Of a stretch of 12,191 nt of DNA, positions 852 to 12,191 are shown one piece after another; the first letter of the stretch is position 1, and every line of letters begins with the position of its first letter. Position numbers and translations under genes: made by a program. Source of the DNA: Pseudomonadota bacterium (GTDB taxonomy: Bacteria; Pseudomonadota; Gammaproteobacteria; Burkholderiales; Burkholderiaceae_C); contig JAUPTP010000021.1 of NCBI GenBank assembly GCA_030918015.1, positions 1 to 12,191 on the forward strand. Direction: 5' to 3'. The notes below the pieces were generated by a model. It had not been told where the DNA came from, made no database searches, and saw only the letters and a list, made by a program, of their open reading frames with translations.

Positions 852-2120
852 CTACACCCAGTCGACCAGCTTGCCCTGGGCGTTGCGCGGCAGCTCGGCG
901 CCGAGCACAAAGGCGCGCGGCCGCTCGGCGGTGCTCAGCCGCGGGGCCAGCCAGCTGTCCAGCCGCTGGATCAGGTCGACCGTGTCGGCATCAACCTTGG
1001 GCACGACAAAGGCCTTGAGCCGCGCACTGTCCTGCAGGGCCACCAGACGCACGGCGGCGTCGGCCACCTCGGGGTGCTGCAGCAGCACCTCGCGCACACG
1101 GGACGGAAAGACATTGATGCCGCCCACCTGCACCGCCTGATCCAGACGGCCGGCCACGTTGAAGCGGCGCGGGCTGTGCCAGTTCAGCGCATCCTGCAGC
1201 ACGAACGCGCGCGGCGCCGTGTGGTCCGACAGGCGCAGCAGCTCATGGTCCCGGCCCTCCGGTCGTGTCCAGTGGGTCATCAGTTCGTAGGGGGCCGCGG
1301 GCGCATCGCGCCAGGCGATGCCGGCGGTCTCGGAGCTGCCATACACCTGCACCAGCCGATGCAGGCCCAGGTCGACCAGCGCCTGGGCGGTGGCGTCCGG
1401 ACAGGGGGCGGTGGAGGTGGCGCCCACCACCCCTGCAGGCAAGGCGCTGGCGTGGCGCGCCAGCAGCGCCCAGTGCACGGGATGGCTCACCAGCAGGTCT
1501 CCCGACGACAGGCGTTGGGGCAGGCTGTTGACCGCCAGCGCACGCACATCCTGCACCGGCAGATGCCCCAGCTCGACCGGCAGCAGCACGGTGAACAGGA
1601 AGCCGTAGATGTGGTGCGCAGGCACTGCCGTCAGCACGCGGCGCAGCGGCTCGGGGTGGGCGCCCGCGAACAGGCCGGCCAGGAAGCGGGTCTCCTGCTG
1701 CAGATCGGCCAGGGTGTGGGTGCACGGCTTGGGCTGGCCGCTGCTGCCCGAGGTGCGGAAGGTCAGGCGCGCATCGAACTGCTCCAGCGCCCGCCCCGTG
1801 ATCTTCAGCCAGTCGCCGAAGCTGGGCTGCGTGGTCAGCAACTCGTCGGCGCCGCTTTCATGCAGATGCAGCGCCTCGCTCAGGGCGGCCGCCACCGACA
1901 TGCGCTCCAGCGAGTCCAGCCCCAGGCCGTCTTCGCCCAGCGAGGTGTGCAGCGGCCAGGGGCCCGCAGGCAGGGCGGGTGCGCCCGGGCGCAGATGGGC
2001 GGTCTCGCTCACCACGAGATCAGCCACGAAGCGCGCCAGCGCGCCGGGCTGCTGGTGCCAGGGCCGCATCAGACGAGAGGATGCGGGAGCGGTGCAGGGG
2101 GAAGCTTCCAGAAGGTCCAT
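852..2120 (-). CDS. pcl: 4-coumarate--CoA ligase, photoactive-yellow-protein activation type
   Basis: An AMP-forming (ANL superfamily) ligase of 422 residues. Visible motifs are the P-loop TSGSSGQPK at 123-131, YGSSETAG at 260-267, the hinge-region GRLD at 324-327, GGINVFPSRVREVL at 333-346, and the C-terminal PRNAQGK with the presumed catalytic Lys417. It is much shorter than plant 4CL (about 540) because the first part of the usual N-terminal domain is missing. Only about 120 residues precede the P-loop, and these include a carrier-protein-like LGEDGLGLDSLERM at 61-74. The short build fits the PYP-activation ligase family (TIGR02372). Its expected reaction is ATP-dependent formation of p-coumaroyl-CoA, the donor of the PYP chromophore. 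That job is strongly backed by the pyp gene upstream on the same strand. It starts 179 bases after the CheA-like gene stops, so it may have its own promoter. No good ribosome site precedes ATG 2120; an internal ATG at 2069 is an alternative. Confidence 0.88.
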   Translation of the reverse strand: MDLLEASPCTAPASSRLMRPWHQQPGALARFVADLVVSETAHLRPGAPALPAGPWPLHTSLGEDGLGLDSLERMSVAAALSEALHLHESGADELLTTQPSFGDWLKITGRALEQFDARLTFRTSGSSGQPKPCTHTLADLQQETRFLAGLFAGAHPEPLRRVLTAVPAHHIYGFLFTVLLPVELGHLPVQDVRALAVNSLPQRLSSGDLLVSHPVHWALLARHASALPAGVVGATSTAPCPDATAQALVDLGLHRLVQVYGSSETAGIAWRDAPAAPYELMTHWTRPEGRDHELLRLSDHTAPRAFVLQDALNWHSPRRFNVAGRLDQAVQVGGINVFPSRVREVLLQHPEVADAAVRLVALQDSARLKAFVVPKVDADTVDLIQRLDSWLAPRLSTAERPRAFVLGAELPRNAQGKLVDWV

Positions 2121-2240
2121 GTCGTGCTACGCAGGGTGGGCCGCCGGTTCGTGAAGGGGCGGCGTGGGCCGGACAGGGTGATGCACGGACAGTTTTGCGC
2201 CTTCGAGACGGGCGGTATCGTGGCAAGTAAGGGCGCAATT

Positions 2241-2256
2241 GCCCGCGTTCGCGGGC
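2241..2256. repeat. Perfect GC-rich palindrome in the gap before pcl
   Basis: The 16-base sequence gcccgcgttcgcgggc has two perfect 7-base arms around a 2-base centre. It lies within the 179-base gap between the CheA-like gene and pcl. There is no T-run on the minus strand just after it, so it is not a canonical intrinsic terminator. An operator or an RNA hairpin affecting pcl expression is possible. It could also be a chance product of the high GC content. Confidence 0.3.
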
Positions 2257-2299
2257 TTGCGGGCGACCCGCCGCAGCGCGGCATGCGCGCCCGCCCCGT

Positions 2300-3748
2300 T
2301 CAGGCCGGGCAGACGCTGCCCTGCAGACGGCTGATTTCGGTCAGATCCAGCACGCCGATCACCCGCCTTTCGGACTGGATGAAACCGCGCAGCCGGGTCG
2401 CCTGCAGCCCCTCAGGCACGGCGTGCATGGCGGCACGGCGCGTGCCCTCGATGCCGGACACGCGCAGCGCCATGCGGCGGCCCCGGTCGGGCTGCACGAT
2501 CACATAGGCATCTTCCGACCGGCGCACATTGTTGACGTTGAACAGCAGAAGCCCGGCATCGGCCACGGGGATGGGTTCGCAGCCGTCGCGGGCGGTGAGC
2601 GCACGGCCGCGCAGGCGCAGGTGATCGGCACTGCGCTGCTCGATGGACTCCACCGAGCTCAGGGGCACGGCCAGCCAGCCATCGGTGGCGTCATCGATGG
2701 AACGCACCACCAGATAGTCGGTCACCCGGCGCAGGCTGCACCGCACTTCCAGCCGGCTGCCACGCTGTGGGGTCTGCTCCAGATTCAGGCGCACATTGTG
2801 GATGGCATCCGAGGTCTGGTTGCGCGCATACACCACCGTGCCGTCGCCATCGTCGCTCAAGGTGAGCACCACATCGCTGGCGTCCACGCTGATCTGGACA
2901 TCCAGAGTGACGAAGGCCGCCTGCTGGTCGGCGAGACGCTGCTCGGTGCAACGGTTCAACGCCTGCGCCTTCAGGGCCAGCACCCACTCCTCGCTGAGAT
3001 CCACCAGCAAGCGCGCCACGTCGGGGGGCATGAAGATCTTGCGGTCGAAGCCCTGCAGTCGCGGCAGGACACGCAAGGGGGCCCCATCGAGGGCCTTCAG
3101 CAGACGATACTCGAGCGCGGCACCGGTGTCTTCGCCGGTGAGCACCAGGGCACGCTCGATCTCCTCGACCACCACCTCCACGGCCTTGTCCAGCTCGCGC
3201 CGGGCCTCAGGTGCCTCCAGCTGCTGGTGCACCTGGTCCAGGGCCATCAGCAAGGCCTCCACGGCCCGATTGGCCCCGCCACTGGCGCTGCTCATGCGCT
3301 CCAGCAAGCGCCCGTTCTGCTCGGAGCCCCGCCGGGCCGTCTCATGGAGGTCGGTCCCGATCTTCTCCACCAGCAGCAGGCTGTCGACGTCCAGGAAGTG
3401 GCGCAGCGTCTCCAGCAGTTCGCCGAGCAGAGCGCCGGCGGCCATCAGGCCCGGCGAGGCGCCGTCCTGCATGTTCTGGTACTGCATCTGCTGGTTGCAG
3501 CGGTTCCAGATCAGCCGCAGCTCCAGCCAGGCGTTGGCCAGGGTCTGAGGCAATTCGTAGGTGTCACCGTCCGGGCAGACGTCACGCACCGCCTGCGCCA
3601 CGCCTTCGATGTGGGCAAGGTAGTGGTCGGCCTGCTGCCGGTGCGCGCCCGGCTCGTTCGCCCCCAGGGCGACCAGCATCGATTCCACCTGATTGCGCAA
3701 GACATCGGCATCCAGCGCGGCCAGCACGCCTTCGAGTTTTTTGAGCAT
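2300..3748 (-). CDS. Degenerate CheA-like protein with C-terminal CheW-like domain
   Basis: A 482-residue cytoplasmic protein. Residues 37-140 contain a helical module shared with the 150-residue protein encoded at 4837-5289; the core at 70-85 is LANAWLELRLIWNRCN. Residues 140-235 are helical. Residues 240-345 look like a decayed CheA-type ATPase: VTLDVQISVDASDVVLTLSD followed by DGDG recalls the CheA D-box region, but the Asn-rich N-box helix (HxxRNAxDHG in CheA) is absent. Residues 345-475 resemble CheW: YLVVRSIDDATDGWLAVPLS at 345-364, then a second half with MALRVSGIEG at 426-435. No Hpt-type phosphorylatable His motif is recognisable. I infer a non-catalytic scaffold that could couple PYP to chemoreceptor arrays or other partners. 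ATG 3748 starts 12 bases after the HDOD stop, so co-expression is likely. The CheA/CheW reading is from pattern only and moderately sure. Confidence 0.62.
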   Translation of the reverse strand: MLKKLEGVLAALDADVLRNQVESMLVALGANEPGAHRQQADHYLAHIEGVAQAVRDVCPDGDTYELPQTLANAWLELRLIWNRCNQQMQYQNMQDGASPGLMAAGALLGELLETLRHFLDVDSLLLVEKIGTDLHETARRGSEQNGRLLERMSSASGGANRAVEALLMALDQVHQQLEAPEARRELDKAVEVVVEEIERALVLTGEDTGAALEYRLLKALDGAPLRVLPRLQGFDRKIFMPPDVARLLVDLSEEWVLALKAQALNRCTEQRLADQQAAFVTLDVQISVDASDVVLTLSDDGDGTVVYARNQTSDAIHNVRLNLEQTPQRGSRLEVRCSLRRVTDYLVVRSIDDATDGWLAVPLSSVESIEQRSADHLRLRGRALTARDGCEPIPVADAGLLLFNVNNVRRSEDAYVIVQPDRGRRMALRVSGIEGTRRAAMHAVPEGLQATRLRGFIQSERRVIGVLDLTEISRLQGSVCPA

Positions 3749-3760
3749 GGCATTTGCCTG

Positions 3761-4840
3761 TCAAGCAGGTACAGCGTCCCAGCGCTTCAGAATCGCTTCG
3801 ATGCGCTGGCGAGGCGCCGACAGCGCCCCCTTGGCCCAGATCTCGTCCAGATTCGCCATGTCGTGGCGCGACACGGCATGGTCCACCGCGTCAGCCAGGT
3901 AGAGCGCCTCGGACAGTGGCTCGTGGTGCAGGGTCGGCACCTGGCGATGGTGATTGCCGATGGCCGCCACAGCACGCTGCCCGAGCTGCCAGCGCTGTGC
4001 AGCCAGCGCACCCAGCGGCTCATGCGTCACCGAGAGCAGGGCATGAAAGAAGTCCGGCGGCAGGTCGATGCTGCGCCGGCGCGCGGCCCGCAGCACCGAC
4101 ATGCGGTCGAAGACGATGAGCTTGCCGACGTCATGCAACAGCGCCAGCGTCATGGCCTCGTCGGGATTGACGGACAGCGCAGGCGCCAGGCACTGGGCAA
4201 TCGGGCCGGTGCGGATCATGTGGGCCCAGACCTGGGCCGCCATCGCGTTGTATTGCCCGCCCGGCAGCGACAGCAGATTGCTGGCACAGCTGGCGGTCAG
4301 CACCGCGCGGGCATTGGTCAGTCCGATGCGGTCCAGCGCCGCGGCCATGCCCAGCACAGGATCACGCCCACCGCTGAAGGCGACGCTGTTGGCCGTGCGC
4401 AGGATGGCCTCCGTCAGGCTCGGATCGCGCGCCAGATGGCTGACCAGGCGTCCACGCTGCAGATTGGGGTCATCGCACATGGCCAGCGCCTCGCGCGCCG
4501 AGGCCGGCAACTGGCGGATCAGCTCGTCGGGGCCGCTCTCCAGAAGCTCGACCAGCGCCCGGGCGTCGGGCACGCCAGATGCGTGCTCCTCCACCAGCCG
4601 ACTGCGCAGGCTGCTTTGCGCATTCCAGTGCGCCAGCGGATCCAGGGCCTGTGCCGCCGGCCAGGCCGGCACGGTGACCTCAGGAACAACCGGCCGAGGC
4701 TCAGCCGCAACCGGCGCAGTCTCCGCCTCAGGGCTGACCGGCAGCGCCGGCTGCGGCGAAACGCGCTTCGCTTCGGGCGTCGATGCTTCAGCATACCGAG
4801 GCCAGCCCAACCACCGCCAAACGAAGCGCATCATCGTCAC
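3761..4840 (-). CDS. HDOD-domain signalling protein
   Basis: A 359-residue protein with a Pro/Ala-rich, probably disordered segment at about 20-65 and an HDOD domain at about 95-315. Visible signature residues are ALLHDVGKLIVFD at 233-245, THEPLGALAAQRWQLG at 272-287, and the IGNHH motif at 294-298. HDOD domains are non-hydrolysing relatives of HD phosphohydrolases that act in bacterial signalling, often beside chemotaxis or second-messenger proteins. Here the HD pair (236-237) is retained, so metal binding cannot be excluded. The frame can start at GTG 4840, which overlaps the stop of the upstream gene by four bases (GTGA) and would couple translation. An in-frame ATG at 4834 has a GAGG ten bases upstream and is an equally good choice. 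In this gene set it is the most obvious output or adaptor protein. The partner is unknown. Confidence 0.88.
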   Translation of the reverse strand: MTMMRFVWRWLGWPRYAEASTPEAKRVSPQPALPVSPEAETAPVAAEPRPVVPEVTVPAWPAAQALDPLAHWNAQSSLRSRLVEEHASGVPDARALVELLESGPDELIRQLPASAREALAMCDDPNLQRGRLVSHLARDPSLTEAILRTANSVAFSGGRDPVLGMAAALDRIGLTNARAVLTASCASNLLSLPGGQYNAMAAQVWAHMIRTGPIAQCLAPALSVNPDEAMTLALLHDVGKLIVFDRMSVLRAARRRSIDLPPDFFHALLSVTHEPLGALAAQRWQLGQRAVAAIGNHHRQVPTLHHEPLSEALYLADAVDHAVSRHDMANLDEIWAKGALSAPRQRIEAILKRWDAVPA

Positions 4841-5289
4841 ACCGCCTCGTCAGGATGGCTCATGGAGTGACGCAGGCTGTCGATGAGAGACAGCGCTCTT
4901 TGGTTCAGGCACTGGATCTGATCGGGCTGAAGCAGGGACTCGATGCGCTGGAAATAGTAGGAGCTGATGCTGCCGCGCACCAGATCGATCGGCTTGGCCT
5001 CGCCATGGCGCATCAGGTCGTAGTTGGCCACATCGTTGTGCCGCTGCCACTGCAGGCGCAGTTCAAGCCACAGGGAAGCCAGCGCGCCGTACAGCTCCTC
5101 GGCATCGTCGGGATCGCACATGGCGTCAGCCAGGGTGCGGATCTGCAGAGCGGCACAGTGCGCCTCATGCTGGACCAGGGTGCGGGCGGCATCGTCAATG
5201 TCCACCGCCGTGATGAACGCGCTCGTGTCGGCAGAGACGACATCGACATCGGCAATGTGCGACAACCGTTGCGGAAGGTCGTAGGTCAT
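4837..5289 (-). CDS. Unknown 150-residue protein sharing a module with the CheA-like protein
   Basis: I do not recognise the family. The protein is acidic and helical, with no signal peptide or membrane segment. Its core LASLWLELRLQWQRHN at residues 70-85 matches LANAWLELRLIWNRCN at residues 70-85 of the CheA-like protein in 11 of 16 positions (W74, LELRL 75-79, W81, R83, N85 among them). The flanks also align without obvious gaps over roughly residues 37-140, so the two probably share an ancestral module. The frame is open further upstream to 5373, but that would overlap pyp by 31 bases, and ATG 5289 (protein start MTYDLPQRL) avoids the overlap. It lies 53 bases after the pyp stop and overlaps the HDOD start by four bases. 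A direct partner of PYP or of the HDOD protein is plausible but unproven. Confidence 0.78.
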   Translation of the reverse strand: MTYDLPQRLSHIADVDVVSADTSAFITAVDIDDAARTLVQHEAHCAALQIRTLADAMCDPDDAEELYGALASLWLELRLQWQRHNDVANYDLMRHGEAKPIDLVRGSISSYYFQRIESLLQPDQIQCLNQRALSLIDSLRHSMSHPDEAV

Positions 5290-5342
5290 GGACAGGTATC
5301 CGGTATTGGGTTTCGAGGCAAAGGAGGCTGTGGGCCGGACGG

Positions 5343-5717
5343 TCAGGCCACACGCATGCTGACGAAGACCCAATTCGAGCCCGACGGCGTGTGGCGCAGC
5401 ATGCGGATGCGCACGTTCGTCGGCTTCATCTTGTAGGTGAAGGTGTAGTTGAACTCGGTGTCCAGGTCATTGCGCGCCACACCGTCCTTGAACTTGCCGT
5501 ACACCAGACGATTGTTGGTGCAGGCCGCCACCTGGGTGAAGAAATTGCTGCCCTCGGCCACGGAAATGGGCACACCGGCCATCTCGGACTCCCACTTGTT
5601 GTAGAGCTTGATGACACCCTGATCATCCACCTGGACCACGCCGTAGGGCTGCGCATCAGCCGCGCTGCGGTCGATGGCGGGGATTTTCGAGATGAATTGA
5701 GGTGCGACAAAGGACAT
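5343..5717 (-). CDS. pyp: Photoactive yellow protein (blue-light PAS photoreceptor)
   Basis: A 124-residue stand-alone PAS protein, nearly the same length as Halorhodospira halophila PYP (125). Aligned to that protein from memory with a constant offset of three, it keeps the chromophore Cys69 (here Cys66 in NFFTQVAACTNN), Tyr42 (Tyr39) and Glu46 (Glu43) in LYNKWESEMAG, Met100 (Met97), and the YGKFK and WVFV signatures. PYP binds p-coumarate as a thioester on that Cys and cycles under blue light by trans-cis isomerisation and proton transfer. Changes near the chromophore are Thr50 to Ala47 and Arg52 to Val49, which should alter colour or kinetics. ATG 5717 is preferred over GTG 5723 because a GGAG lies about five bases upstream and the length then fits. 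It sits 93 bases after the coiled-coil gene and heads the signalling genes; pcl lies downstream. Cytoplasmic. Confidence 0.95.
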   Translation of the reverse strand: MSFVAPQFISKIPAIDRSAADAQPYGVVQVDDQGVIKLYNKWESEMAGVPISVAEGSNFFTQVAACTNNRLVYGKFKDGVARNDLDTEFNYTFTYKMKPTNVRIRMLRHTPSGSNWVFVSMRVA

Positions 5718-5730
5718 GGTCACTCCAAAC

Positions 5731-5749
5731 GGTCAAGGGGAGGGTCAAG
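5731..5749. repeat. Short direct repeat just upstream of pyp
   Basis: GGTCAAG occurs at 5731-5737 and again at 5743-5749, a spacing of 12 bases. Read on the pyp strand, this is two copies of CTTGACC ending about 13 bases before the start codon. Each contains a TTGAC-like block, but no matching -10 element fits before the start codon. It could bind a regulator or be chance. Confidence 0.25.
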
Positions 5750-5810
5750 TGGAATCGGACGAGGCAAGACACCTGCGGGCTTTATGCGTCCGGGAGGGCA
5801 ACGATGGAAT

Positions 5811-6485
5811 TCATCTGAGCGATTGCGACACGAGCGCATCGATCATTTCGCGCGCGCGCCGCTTGGTGATGAGGATGTCGGCCTTGAGATTGGCGCACTC
5901 ATGGAGCAAGTCGTTGCGCTCGTCGAGCAGGGCGGCGACCTGTTCAGTGAGGCTTTGCGCCATGAAGGCCGCATCCCGGTGACCCAGGGTCAGGCCTTCG
6001 CTCTCCGCGTACAGGGCAGCCAGCTGGGCCTGGAGCGACTGCACGGTGAAATGCAGCTCGGCCACGCCCGTTTCGCCCAGATCGGCACTGATCTCACGCA
6101 GTTCGCGCTCCTCGTACAGGGCGTGCAGCTGCTGGTTCAGTCCGTCGATGGTGACCTGCAGGCGGTTTTCAGCACCTTCGGCACCGGCCTCGCGCAACGC
6201 ATAGAACTCGGCCAGCTGAGCGGTCAGACTTTCCACGCTTTCACGCAGGTCGGCGATGGTGCGAGCGCTCAGGCGCTGCTTGTCTTCGTAGAGAGCCGCC
6301 AGCGACTCCTCCGTGGGAAGCATGACGCTGCTCTCGCGCTCCCTGTCGGCGTAGATGCACACCAACTGTTGCTCCAGACTGGCCAGGGATTCCCGCAGTG
6401 ACTCGATCGAATCTGCTGCAGCGTTGTGGTGTGACAGGTTCATGGGTGCACTTGGGTCTGCGGTTTGGTGTGCATCGTCGGACAC
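5811..6485 (-). CDS. Coiled-coil protein with six Leu/Tyr repeat units, first gene of the PYP set
   Basis: A 224-residue protein, acidic over most of its length, almost entirely predicted helix, with no recognisable catalytic domain. A degenerate unit of the form SLxxQLxxLYxERE recurs. Clear copies are SLASLEQQLVCIYADRERE (33-51), SLTAQLAEFYALRE (86-99), GLNQQLHALYEERELRE (115-131), SLQAQLAALYAESE (150-163) and SLTEQVAALLDERN (178-191), with a half copy at 61-68. The aromatic position falls at residues 45, 66, 95, 124, 159 (Leu at 187), spacings of 21, 29, 29, 35 and 28, near multiples of seven as expected for a coiled coil. The C-terminus ends in a basic patch (KRRAR, 208-212). The start is uncertain: GTG 6485 gives the longest frame, ATG 6443 would remove 14 residues, and neither has a good ribosome site. 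A scaffold or oligomerising role is inferred from shape and position only. Confidence 0.75.
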   Translation of the reverse strand: MSDDAHQTADPSAPMNLSHHNAAADSIESLRESLASLEQQLVCIYADRERESSVMLPTEESLAALYEDKQRLSARTIADLRESVESLTAQLAEFYALREAGAEGAENRLQVTIDGLNQQLHALYEERELREISADLGETGVAELHFTVQSLQAQLAALYAESEGLTLGHRDAAFMAQSLTEQVAALLDERNDLLHECANLKADILITKRRAREMIDALVSQSLR

Positions 6486-6659: not shown

Positions 6660-7343
6660 ATGACCTCATTCCACCCCGCGTTCGAACGCACGGCTTCGGG
6701 CCCCGTGAACGGCGCCTGGCGCCCCTTGCTGAGAACTCGCCTTGTCGGCCGCGCCGAGCCGCTGTTCATCGACACCGACGGTCTGCGCAGTGCGGCCTCG
6801 CTCTGGAGCGGCGCACTGGTGTGGGCGCAGCTGCTGCGCGCCCACCCCGACATCACCGGCGTGGTGGTGTGGCAGACCGAGCGTCTGGCGCTGATGCAGC
6901 TGCTGGTGGCGGCCCTGTGGGACGGCCGCACCGTGCGGATCGAGGCGACTTCACGCGCGCCCCGGCCTGACGCCTGGTGCCTGGACGGCCGGCAGGTGAT
7001 GCACGACGGCCAGGCCGTGTGCCGTCTGGGCGATGGGGGCTGGCCGGATCTGGCCGGGCCGGCGCGCCTGTCCACCCTGGACATGCTGGCCGGTGCGCCC
7101 ATGCACGGCGACCTGGCGGTGCGCGACCGACAGGCCAGCCACGGCGATCTCTGGCAGGACCTGGGCGCGCCGCTGAGCGCGCAGCAGCCGGCGCCACAGC
7201 CGGCCAGCGGCATGCAGGAGCCCAGGATCGAGGTGCTGGAGCCCTTCGACCTGGCCGCGCTGGCCACGCCGCACGAGGTGCTCAACGATGCCCTGCTGCC
7301 GCTGCTGCGCTGCACCGAAGTCTGGGAGCGGCAGGCGACCTGA
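6660..7343 (+). CDS. Unknown 227-residue protein with a weak ANL-ligase N-terminal-like segment
   Basis: I do not recognise the full-length family. The frame is open from 6465, but the upstream residues look non-coding and overlap the start of the coiled-coil gene, so ATG 6660 (protein start MTSFHPAFER) is chosen; no ribosome site is evident. Residues 35-105 (LFIDTDGLRSAASLWSGALV at 35-54, VVVWQTERLALMQLLVAALW at 68-87, then DGRTVRIEA at 88-96) follow the pattern of the first subdomain of acyl-CoA synthetases. In those enzymes a helix precedes a strand, and a second helix ends in a short A-x-x-x-G-x-x-V turn. The P-loop and all later ligase motifs are absent. The pcl enzyme in this window lacks just this subdomain, so a split-ligase partner is possible but speculative. 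Residues 165-190 are Pro/Gln/Ala-rich. The stop lies 24 bases from the convergent decarboxylase stop. Cytoplasmic by sequence. Confidence 0.6.
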   Translation: MTSFHPAFERTASGPVNGAWRPLLRTRLVGRAEPLFIDTDGLRSAASLWSGALVWAQLLRAHPDITGVVVWQTERLALMQLLVAALWDGRTVRIEATSRAPRPDAWCLDGRQVMHDGQAVCRLGDGGWPDLAGPARLSTLDMLAGAPMHGDLAVRDRQASHGDLWQDLGAPLSAQQPAPQPASGMQEPRIEVLEPFDLAALATPHEVLNDALLPLLRCTEVWERQAT

Positions 7344-10315: not shown

Positions 10316-12191
10316 ATGACGAGCAGGCGGGGATCGGAAACAGGGCGGCGCCACCGGGTCGCCGAGGTGGTGGCGAGCCAGGTGGCGCCGCTGACACGCT
10401 TCTCGGCCCAGGATCTGAGAGAGCTCGGCCCCGAGCAGGAATCCTGGGCCGAGCTCACGGTGACCACCCGCCAGCGCGTCGAGCTGGAATGGACCGTCAC
10501 GATCCACCCGGGCGACGCGCCGGAAGGACTTGCGGTCTGCCCGGATGCCCCGGCCCTCGAGCGCGAACTGCAGGCCCGTCTGGACGAGGCCGAGCGCACC
10601 GCCCCGGCACTGATCCAGCACTGGGCGCAGGAGGACAGCGGTCGCTACCGCCGTCTGCTGCCGGGCGGGCTGTTCGTCGCCGGACTCGATGCGCCGCTGG
10701 GGGTGAGCGAAGACTGCCCGGACTGCGCAGGCCGTGGCCGCCTGGCCTGCCCGGCATGCCGGGGCGGGCACCTCGACTGCACGCGCTGCCAGGCCCGCGG
10801 CCGCCTGGTGTGCGCCAGCTGCCACGGGTCGGGCCGCCTCGCCTGCCCGGACTGCCAGGGCCGGGGGCAGCACGAAGCCCCGACCGCCCCCCGCCCCGGC
10901 GAACCGGCTGCCCCTGCGGTGCCCTGCCCGACCTGCATCGGCCGCGGCTGGAGCCCCTGCCCGGCCTGTGCCGGCCAGGGCGAAGCCCCCTGTCCGGACT
11001 GCGCCGGCCACGGCCAACGGGACTGTCCGCATTGCCAGGCCACCGGCGAGATCGACTGTCCGGGCTGCCACGCCAGCGGCCGGCGCCACCGCATCGGGCA
11101 GCTGCACGAGCAGCTCGTCGTCGAGGACCAGATCGAGGTGCAGCACGCCGATCCGGCCGTGGCCGAGACCTGCGCGCGACAGCTGGGCGATCCGGTGCGC
11201 ATCGGCCAGATCGCCCAGCTCGAGACGATCCGCTGGACCACCGCGCCGCTGGCCGTCCAGGCCACCCACCGGCTGCGGCTGGCCGTGCGGCAGGCCGCCC
11301 TGCAGATCGGGGCCCGGCCGCAGACCTTCACCGCGCTCGGGCCGGAGCTGTGGGTGCCGGAGCTGCACCATGCGGTCTCGCGCCTGCTCGCGCTCGATCA
11401 GCAGACGCTCGAGCGCAACACCTTCGGCAGCGGCCGCCACCTCGGCGATGCGCTGCAGCGCTTTCTGGACTCGCCGCTCCATGTCCATCTGGCGGTCGAG
11501 GGGCCGACCGCGGCGCCGCCGGACGACCGGATCGCGCCCGAACACCCGGCGCAGGCCGTGCAGCTGATGCGCCAGGCGGTCGAGCGGCTGTGGCTGCAGC
11601 GGCTGTGGCGCCCGGCCGTGGCGGCGCTGGCCGGCTCGGGCCTGATCTCCGGCGCGCTGGTGATGGCAGCCGCGCCCCGGCTCGGCTGGCCGCAGGCCGC
11701 GCTGGCCGGCACCGCCCTGGCCGCCGGCCTGTGGAGCCTGCTCGACTGGCGACTGCGCCGCCAGCTCGCCGGCGAGCTCGGGCGGGAGGCCGGTCCGGCG
11801 CTGACCCGGACGCTGCCGGGCGCACCGCCCTGGCGCCGCAGCTTCCTCATCCAGGTGGGCGCGGCCCTGCCGACCTGCGGCCTCCTCGCCCTGGCCGCCA
11901 CCCGGCTGCCCCCGGCGGCGGCCCGCATCGCCGTGCAGCAGACCGAAGTCCGCAACGAAACCCTGCTGGCCGACTGGGCGCGCAGCGACCGCGACTACCG
12001 GCTGCGCACCTACCCGCCCGCCGACTGGCTGCAGGCGCGCGCGGCTGCCGGCGACCTCGACGCGCAGCTGGTGCGGGCCTGGGCGCTGCTGCTGGGCATC
12101 GAGAACACGCCGGCGGCGGCTCCGGCCCGGCGACTGCTCGACGCGCTCGCGCAAGGCCCGCGCGCCACCGAGGCGGCCGTGCGCATCGGCC
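10316..12191 (+). CDS. Membrane protein with ten CxxC zinc knuckles in two blocks (C-terminus beyond window)
   Basis: An uninterrupted frame from ATG 10316 runs off the right edge after 625 residues; a GAGG lies six bases before the start. Residues 1-130 are unrecognised. Ten CxxC knuckles with DnaJ-like spacing (CxxCxGxG, about 11 residues apart) follow in two blocks of five. The first cysteines of each pair are at 134, 145, 155, 166, 177 and at 204, 215, 226, 237, 248, with a Pro/Ala-rich linker between blocks. Residues 260-425 are mixed alpha/beta of unknown type. Hydrophobic segments at about 433-453, 458-477 and 510-530 suggest membrane anchoring. From about 570 on, helices such as AAGDLDAQLVRAWALLLG recall Sel1/TPR-type repeats. 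DnaJ has only four such knuckles, and no J-domain is present. Zinc binding is likely; the function is unknown. It lies 113 bases after the GNAT stop. Confidence 0.82.
   Translation, partial: MTSRRGSETGRRHRVAEVVASQVAPLTRFSAQDLRELGPEQESWAELTVTTRQRVELEWTVTIHPGDAPEGLAVCPDAPALERELQARLDEAERTAPALIQHWAQEDSGRYRRLLPGGLFVAGLDAPLGVSEDCPDCAGRGRLACPACRGGHLDCTRCQARGRLVCASCHGSGRLACPDCQGRGQHEAPTAPRPGEPAAPAVPCPTCIGRGWSPCPACAGQGEAPCPDCAGHGQRDCPHCQATGEIDCPGCHASGRRHRIGQLHEQLVVEDQIEVQHADPAVAETCARQLGDPVRIGQIAQLETIRWTTAPLAVQATHRLRLAVRQAALQIGARPQTFTALGPELWVPELHHAVSRLLALDQQTLERNTFGSGRHLGDALQRFLDSPLHVHLAVEGPTAAPPDDRIAPEHPAQAVQLMRQAVERLWLQRLWRPAVAALAGSGLISGALVMAAAPRLGWPQAALAGTALAAGLWSLLDWRLRRQLAGELGREAGPALTRTLPGAPPWRRSFLIQVGAALPTCGLLALAATRLPPAAARIAVQQTEVRNETLLADWARSDRDYRLRTYPPADWLQARAAAGDLDAQLVRAWALLLGIENTPAAAPARRLLDALAQGPRATEAAVRIG

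Follow-up and report, generated by a model that had tools for sequence, protein, structure and literature searches.

A conserved gene block around PYP with a CheA-like protein and an HDOD protein: a candidate blue-light signalling module

Six genes on one strand of a 12,191-nucleotide stretch of DNA (the window: contig JAUPTP010000021.1 of the Pseudomonadota bacterium assembly GCA_030918015.1), together with a seventh that diverges from them, place a PYP-family photoreceptor and its ligase (PCL) beside an HDOD protein, a CheA-like protein (CHEAL), a free-standing homologue of CHEAL's N-terminal domain (U150) and two further proteins, CC and ORF8. All seven genes recur in unchanged order and orientation in Sphaerotilus natans ATCC 13338, a strain of the same genus. 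We read the block as a dedicated blue-light signalling module that would work by protein contact rather than phosphotransfer, and give this reading a probability of a little under one half (about 0.48); the three alternatives weighed below share slightly better than even odds between them.

How the light sensor PYP passes on its signal is for the most part unknown, and its signal transduction chain is called an important knowledge gap in the abstract of a 2025 survey (PMC12826048). The block supplies concrete, testable partners, with U150, CHEAL, the HDOD protein, CC and ORF8 as five candidates and a culture-collection strain that carries them all. An initial annotation had proposed a compact light-signalling pathway at this locus; the conserved block and our reading of CHEAL speak for it, and the pathway itself is what we infer from them.

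Gene layout and the photoreceptor

The window coincides with one contig of a draft genome of 2.96 Mb (550 contigs, 69% complete). The six genes that the initial annotation had listed are all present on the minus strand, transcribed in the order CC, PYP, U150, HDOD, CHEAL and PCL from 6443 (or 6485) to 852; that list had left out the divergent ORF8, which travels with the cluster.

Table 1. Features of the block in the window
Feature	Position	Strand	Description
ORF8	6660..7343	+	227-aa protein; start ATG 6660; divergent from the cluster
CC	5811..6443	-	210-aa coiled-coil-like protein
PYP photoreceptor	5343..5723	-	124-126 aa
U150	4837..5289	-	150-aa free-standing homologue of the CHEAL N-terminal domain
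HDOD protein	3761..4840	-	short N-terminal segment, Pro/Ala-rich linker, HDOD domain at residues 110-299
CHEAL	2300..3748	-	U150-like helical N-terminal domain, helical linker, P4-like domain, CheW-like P5 domain
PCL	852..2120	-	PYP-type 4-coumarate--CoA ligase

From CC to PCL, successive genes are separated by 87, 53, -4, 12 and 179 bases in the window and by 90, 55, -4, 16 and 124 bases in S. natans, so the tight junctions noted earlier on either side of the HDOD gene (the overlap with U150 and the short gap to CHEAL) hold in both genomes. The open reading frame of CC begins at 6485, but its start is more likely ATG 6443, since a stop codon lies three codons before that Met in S. natans; the 87-base gap is the same with either choice. 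For PYP, the GGAG upstream makes ATG 5717 the more likely start. Between the starts of ORF8 and CC (ATG 6443) lie 216 bp; the S. natans counterpart, measured up to the first start codon, is 186 bp. The 87- and 179-base gaps leave room for internal promoters, which counts against the module reading; no sigma-70-like site was found between 600 and 7000 (0.4 in shuffles).

The PYP protein matched TIGR02373, its sole NCBIfam match, with 102.8 bits (E 1.3e-29), below the curated equivalog cut-off of 143.05 bits. That cut-off was exceeded in 1 of 60 genomes searched and is therefore stricter than the published family, and we describe the window protein as a PYP-family protein rather than as an equivalog of the type protein. 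Its PDB matches at E <= 0.001 were by name all PYPs or PYP derivatives (33 of 33, one named PPR; best E 1.4e-23), and the alignment retains, in H. halophila numbering, Y42, E46, F62, V66, A67, C69, F96 and Y98; the chromophore-binding Cys69 is thus present together with Glu46 and Tyr42. Pocket changes are I31V and P68A, with T50A and R52V in addition, and other usually conserved positions carry L26Q, F28Y, F75V and G86N. At position 50 the family consensus is Ala, as against Thr50 of the type protein, according to the passages of PMC12826048 used here.

PCL matched TIGR02372 over positions 10-385 of 386 with 322.1 bits (E 3.8e-96), narrowly missing the cut-off of 334.7; its adjacency to pyp supports the role of a PYP-type ligase, and with these scores and residues the earlier identification of both proteins stands. 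A PYP-type ligase makes p-coumaroyl-CoA, which loads PYP at Cys69. The tyrosine ammonia lyase family PF00221 was found in none of the 13 genomes of the genus. In a tree of PYPs that includes two fragmentary rows (35 and 41 aa) and drew a long-branch warning from the program, the window and S. natans proteins form a sister pair that groups with the ligase-linked PYPs of three other genomes (G007, G414 and G160), not with the GGDEF-linked ones. The window's own genome also encodes a second PYP (PYP2, region L026), followed by a PAS-GGDEF protein.

The HDOD protein matched PF08668 with 99.9 bits against a gathering cut-off of 22.9, retains the HD motif and matched the HDOD structures 3m1t and 3hc1; its layout of short N-terminal segment, linker and HDOD domain is shared with a protein of another genus (region L112) at 25% identity. 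U150, CC and ORF8 matched no family above its curated cut-off: CC, with a repeat resembling S-L-x-x-Q-L-x-A-L-Y-x-E-R, gave weak matches to coiled-coil families only, U150 had no Pfam or NCBIfam match, and neither ORF8 nor its S. natans copy had a Pfam match. The idea that ORF8 supplies an N-terminal half absent from a split coumarate ligase was rejected on hhalign probabilities of 0.3 and 0.1 against two genus sets of acyl-CoA synthetases, a weak test given that the sets contained out-of-frame ends and 11 of 12 sequences.

A CheA-like protein lacking kinase motifs

The domains of CheA are named P1 to P5, and the model of CHEAL, of medium confidence (pTM 0.45), folds as CheA P4 and P5. The structure matches listed for this model fall at residues 202-473 and name no fold for the N-terminal domain, and the CheW-like domain matched CheA P5 in complex with CheW and receptor (4jpb). 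Among Pfam families only CheW (PF01584) is a plausible match, at 22.4 bits against a gathering cut-off of 23.5 for the window copy; it was found in 20 of 20 CHEAL family members (E up to 10, best E 2.9e-8), and HATPase_c in none of the 20. As to the N box and ATP lid of the ATPase domain, Asn occurs at any one position of 236-266 in at most 7 of 20 rows, and only 26 residues separate DDGDG (299-303) from GSRLEVR (330-336), the final strand, whereas this stretch is long in the genus CheA set; the lid is thus missing from CHEAL. Judged from the modelled fold, CHEAL likely descends from CheA, and the missing N-box Asn and lid support the earlier label 'kinase-dead', with loss of activity as the probable consequence. 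A HMMER profile built from 20 CheA sequences of the genus, some of them shortened, did not reach CHEAL at E <= 1e-3, and hhalign aligned CHEAL with the genus CheA set at a probability of only 25; both results count against the module reading.

The CheW-like domain is also a ground for the best-placed alternative, phototaxis through the ordinary chemoreceptor array, in which PYP, with CC and U150, would alter how this domain competes with CheA and CheW for receptors, the real CheA kinases would give the output and the HDOD protein would tune motility separately. The domain's presence in 20 of 20 family members and its match to a P5 in complex with CheW and receptor speak for this route, CheA-type genes (PF02895 over its cut-off) are present in 13 of 13 genus genomes, and passages of PMC12826048 and PMC9664959 report PYPs fused to MCPs and MCP genes as neighbours; the PYP-ligase pair of another genus genome adjoins an MCP gene (region L018). 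Against it, the ten window proteins scanned matched no MCP or CheY family (nor GGDEF, EAL or HisKA), and the tight junctions on both sides of the HDOD gene, to U150 and to CHEAL, point to a joint product. We regard this array route as rather unlikely as a whole.

Conservation and distribution of the block

Conservation of the genes beside pyp in a related genome had been set beforehand as a test of the proposal, and the same block lies on a 346,292-base contig of S. natans, equal in length to NZ_FTMZ01000002.1, its seven products 61-89% identical to those of the window. The chromosomal setting differs: YigZ, the Orn/Lys/Arg decarboxylase, the acetyltransferase and the gene at 10316-12190, which flank the block in the window, have no match in 19.9 kb around the S. 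natans copy, and the block is therefore a conserved unit. Between the two copies all seven genes show pN/pS values under 1 (PYP 0.10, CHEAL 0.25, U150 0.27, PCL 0.30, HDOD 0.32, CC 0.37, ORF8 0.51).

Across the genomes searched, the cluster has a narrow distribution. Of 13 genus genomes the same two carry ORF8, CC and U150, with ORF8 divergent in both, and the cluster-type HDOD is confined to those two, the other HDOD proteins of the genus being 24-33% identical over part of the protein. In samples of 399 genomes each from the order and the family, from which S. natans was presumably not drawn as it is not among the matches, a full-length CHEAL match was found in the window's own genome only, as was a U150 match in the order sample. 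Three weak CHEAL-like matches in the order sample (E 1.4e-5 to 7.3e-5) and two in the family sample (E 7.2e-4 and 9.6e-4) were not counted; all five span only 41-85 residues around the P4-like region, and one that we inspected looked like an antisense frame. A scan of GTDB r220 contigs with two short peptide patterns, which diverged relatives can escape, found S. natans only; plasmids gave no CHEAL match and viral contigs no PYP relative. That the full cluster is known from two genomes counts against the module reading, as the gene neighbourhood then carries limited weight.

More distant relatives appear among database proteins, which, counting those of the window, number at least 19 for CHEAL (from a search that scored the 8000 candidates sharing most words), 47 for U150 and 37 for ORF8. 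The longest contigs bearing these proteins are of equal size in 6 cases for CHEAL and U150, 3 for CHEAL and ORF8 and 5 for U150 and ORF8 (one of the last, at 21403, being the window's own sequence), where jittered controls gave 0.05, 0.05 and 0.20. The equal-size CHEAL-U150 cases include the most diverged CHEAL, and because their longest contigs are equal in size we suggest that CHEAL and U150 remain linked in relatives at 47% and 61% identity.

We compared 27 PYP neighbourhoods, made up of the window plus 13 regions each from 60 relatives and from the order sample, in which 66 of 399 genomes had some PYP match at E <= 0.001. These regions, of 5.6 to 19.9 kb, cover all 16 PYP places with E < 1e-14 in these sets outside the window's own genome; weaker order-sample matches and the weakly matching region L031 were left out, and the queries were window and genus proteins, so that diverged neighbours can be missed. 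U150, CHEAL, CC and ORF8 occur in 2 of the 27 (the window and L019), compared with GGDEF in 17, PCL in 9, HisKA/HATPase in 7 and MCP in 1. HDOD occurs in 5: both clusters, plus three genomes that belong to a single other genus (L112-L114). In these three it is on the same strand as pyp and within about 4 kb of it, after PYP-GGDEF-GGDEF, with gaps before it of 527 and 897 bases in two of them; this is a second, looser PYP-HDOD association, although another member of that genus (G091, L120) lacks HDOD at its PYP locus.

The patchy distribution in different chromosomal settings also fits a small island of co-inherited neighbours, in which PYP would need its ligase only and signal through none of the others, and third-position GC of 0.79-0.90 in the block, against 0.94-0.96 in two flanking genes, also agrees with an island. 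Against this, gene order, overlap and spacing have been retained at a dS of 0.54-0.99 (from six genes), and pyp is an internal gene of the block rather than a marginal one; we consider mere co-inheritance improbable.

U150, a proposed mechanism and known systems

The initial annotation rightly recorded a 150-residue protein but called it unknown, missing its likeness to CHEAL. Profile matches between U150 and the CHEAL N-terminus in either direction reached E 1.1e-9 to 1.2e-7; the U150 profile found it at E 1.2e-7 in the window and 3.5e-9 in S. natans, tblastn gave 28% identity (E 1.4e-6) and hhalign a probability of 96 (E 2.1e-9, 108 columns). The window proteins share W-L-E-L-R-L-x-W-x-R-x-N-x-x-x-x-Y-x-x-M-x-x-G. 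By these sequence comparisons, in both species, U150 is a free-standing homologue of the CHEAL N-terminal domain, a relation that is new here.

Histidines bear on whether phosphotransfer persists. U150 His84 is present in 34 of 35 rows (the remaining row is a gap), and U150 His41, in 25 of 33 rows with a letter, is aligned by hhalign to CHEAL His42, which like His46 is present in 18 of 19 rows with a letter; no histidine is invariant in all 20 CHEAL rows. A CHEAL histidine might be phosphorylated, which tells against the module reading. A persisting phosphorelay, with U150 and/or the CHEAL N-terminal domain (which presumably sits where CheA carries P1) as phospho-acceptor of another CheA or histidine kinase and CHEAL as scaffold, is nonetheless the least probable of the alternatives, as CHEAL has Cys at the position matching His84 in 19 of 20 rows (Trp in the other), its most diverged member (P0019) has Leu in place of His42, and U150 shows no similarity to the genus CheA set (hhalign probability 0.1, with a set cut at 1500 bases either side from which some P1 domains may be missing).

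The module reading draws on the kept order and spacing, the shared distribution, the equal-size contigs, the pN/pS values below 1, the missing kinase parts, the homology of U150 to CHEAL and the retention of both the chromophore residues and the ligase, with Ppr and the HDOD proteins described below as precedents. In such a dedicated module, p-coumaroyl-CoA from the ligase would load PYP at Cys69, and light-switched PYP would pass its signal by protein contact, not phosphate, to U150, CHEAL or CC. A complex built on CHEAL and U150 would receive it, with CHEAL, a former CheA presumably without kinase activity, as relay or scaffold through its CheW-like end. The most likely output would be the HDOD protein, acting on motility or attachment, because HDOD proteins from other systems influence flagella and attachment; it could, however, serve another input, and the CheW-like domain might alternatively dock into the cell's chemoreceptor arrays. 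It is likely that a CheA has been pared down here to a pseudo-kinase, one of its domains being duplicated as a stand-alone protein. A fuller history, in which a CheA shed its kinase parts and turned into a relay, a copy of its N-terminal domain gave rise to the free adaptor U150, and PYP and HDOD replaced phosphorylation as input and output, we offer tentatively as one possible course.

Related links are already known: passages of PMC12826048 place pyp beside c-di-GMP genes, and PMC2993699 ties Ppr to CheW. The former covers 984 PYPs and 113 operons with GGDEF/EAL, HisKA/HATPase, pCL, TAL and BLUF, and PMC9664959 names transcriptional regulators, histidine kinases, GGDEF proteins and chemoreceptors around PYP. 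The terms 'HDOD' and 'CheW' are absent from the main text of both, and neither is in Table 2 of PMC12826048; earlier mention elsewhere is possible, for instance in the 2012 survey of PYP contexts by Meyer (10.1039/c2pp25090j) that PMC12826048 cites.

Single-domain PYP operons, as these two papers present them, likewise set pyp beside signalling genes and often pCL, and PYP2 of the window's own genome is of this kind; they carry GGDEF/EAL or histidine-kinase genes, whereas the ten window proteins scanned matched no GGDEF, EAL, HisKA or MCP family. Ppr of Rhodocista centenaria, a PYP-phytochrome-histidine kinase, also links PYP input to a CheW-type protein, its kinase domain binding CheW (PMC2993699, in the parts drawn on); it is one fusion with a kinase domain and a phytochrome, whereas here the proteins are separate and the CheA-like one has no recognisable catalytic parts. 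Among HDOD proteins, SadB, GsmR and HdpA share PF08668 with the window protein. In the passages used of PMC6543031, HdpA and GsmR influence attachment and flagellar genes, and SadB, which has an additional YbaK-like domain, binds c-di-GMP, the binding not being assigned to the HDOD domain itself; those passages mention no photoreceptor link. With CheA itself, CHEAL would share the modelled P4-P5 fold and the P5/CheW-like domain, and it differs in having neither N-box Asn nor ATP lid and in an N-terminal domain held in common with U150.

ORF8 and other features of the window

The divergent ORF8 encodes a conserved protein in which the motifs W-D-G-R and G-G-W-P are invariant and the C-terminus is likewise conserved. 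Elsewhere in the window, an incomplete protein carries numerous CxxCxG-type repeats, of the kind found in the DnaJ zinc-finger region, followed by a long C-terminal part. Within the cluster, an 11-base string, GTCCGGCCCAC, is common to the gap between PYP and the cluster gene U150 and the gap between CHEAL and the PYP-type ligase gene PCL; it was not found in the corresponding gaps of Sphaerotilus natans ATCC 13338.

Coordinates of features in the window and of PYP loci on other contigs
Feature	Location	Coordinates	Strand
ORF8	window	6660-7343	+
Incomplete repeat protein	window	10316-12190	
PYP-U150 gap	window	5290-5342	
CHEAL-PCL gap	window	2121-2299	
Four PYP-family matches, ligase-like ORF	G160, L110	4639-8452	
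PYP and ligase ORFs	G007, L018	6464-10262	
Second PYP, PAS-GGDEF protein	own genome, L026 (contig C274)	2286-4077	

p-Coumarate supply and ligase-associated PYP loci

A family search for aromatic ammonia lyase (PF00221) found it absent from all 13 of the 13 genus genomes. At two other loci PYP-family sequences lie with a ligase or ligase-like ORF: in genome G160 one strand carries four PYP-family matches in ~3.5 kb, with a ligase-like ORF among them, and in G007 the PYP ORF overlaps the ligase ORF by 4 bases and a methyl-accepting chemotaxis gene is convergent with both.

PYP beside HDOD and GGDEF genes

Outside the cluster, an HDOD gene lies downstream of PYP2-GGDEF-GGDEF on the same strand at L112, L113 and L114 (three genomes, one other genus), where spacing is loose with no tight gaps; the L112 HDOD protein has the layout of the window's. 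In the window's own genome, a second PYP is followed by a PAS-GGDEF protein, and this pair is the known PYP/c-di-GMP arrangement.
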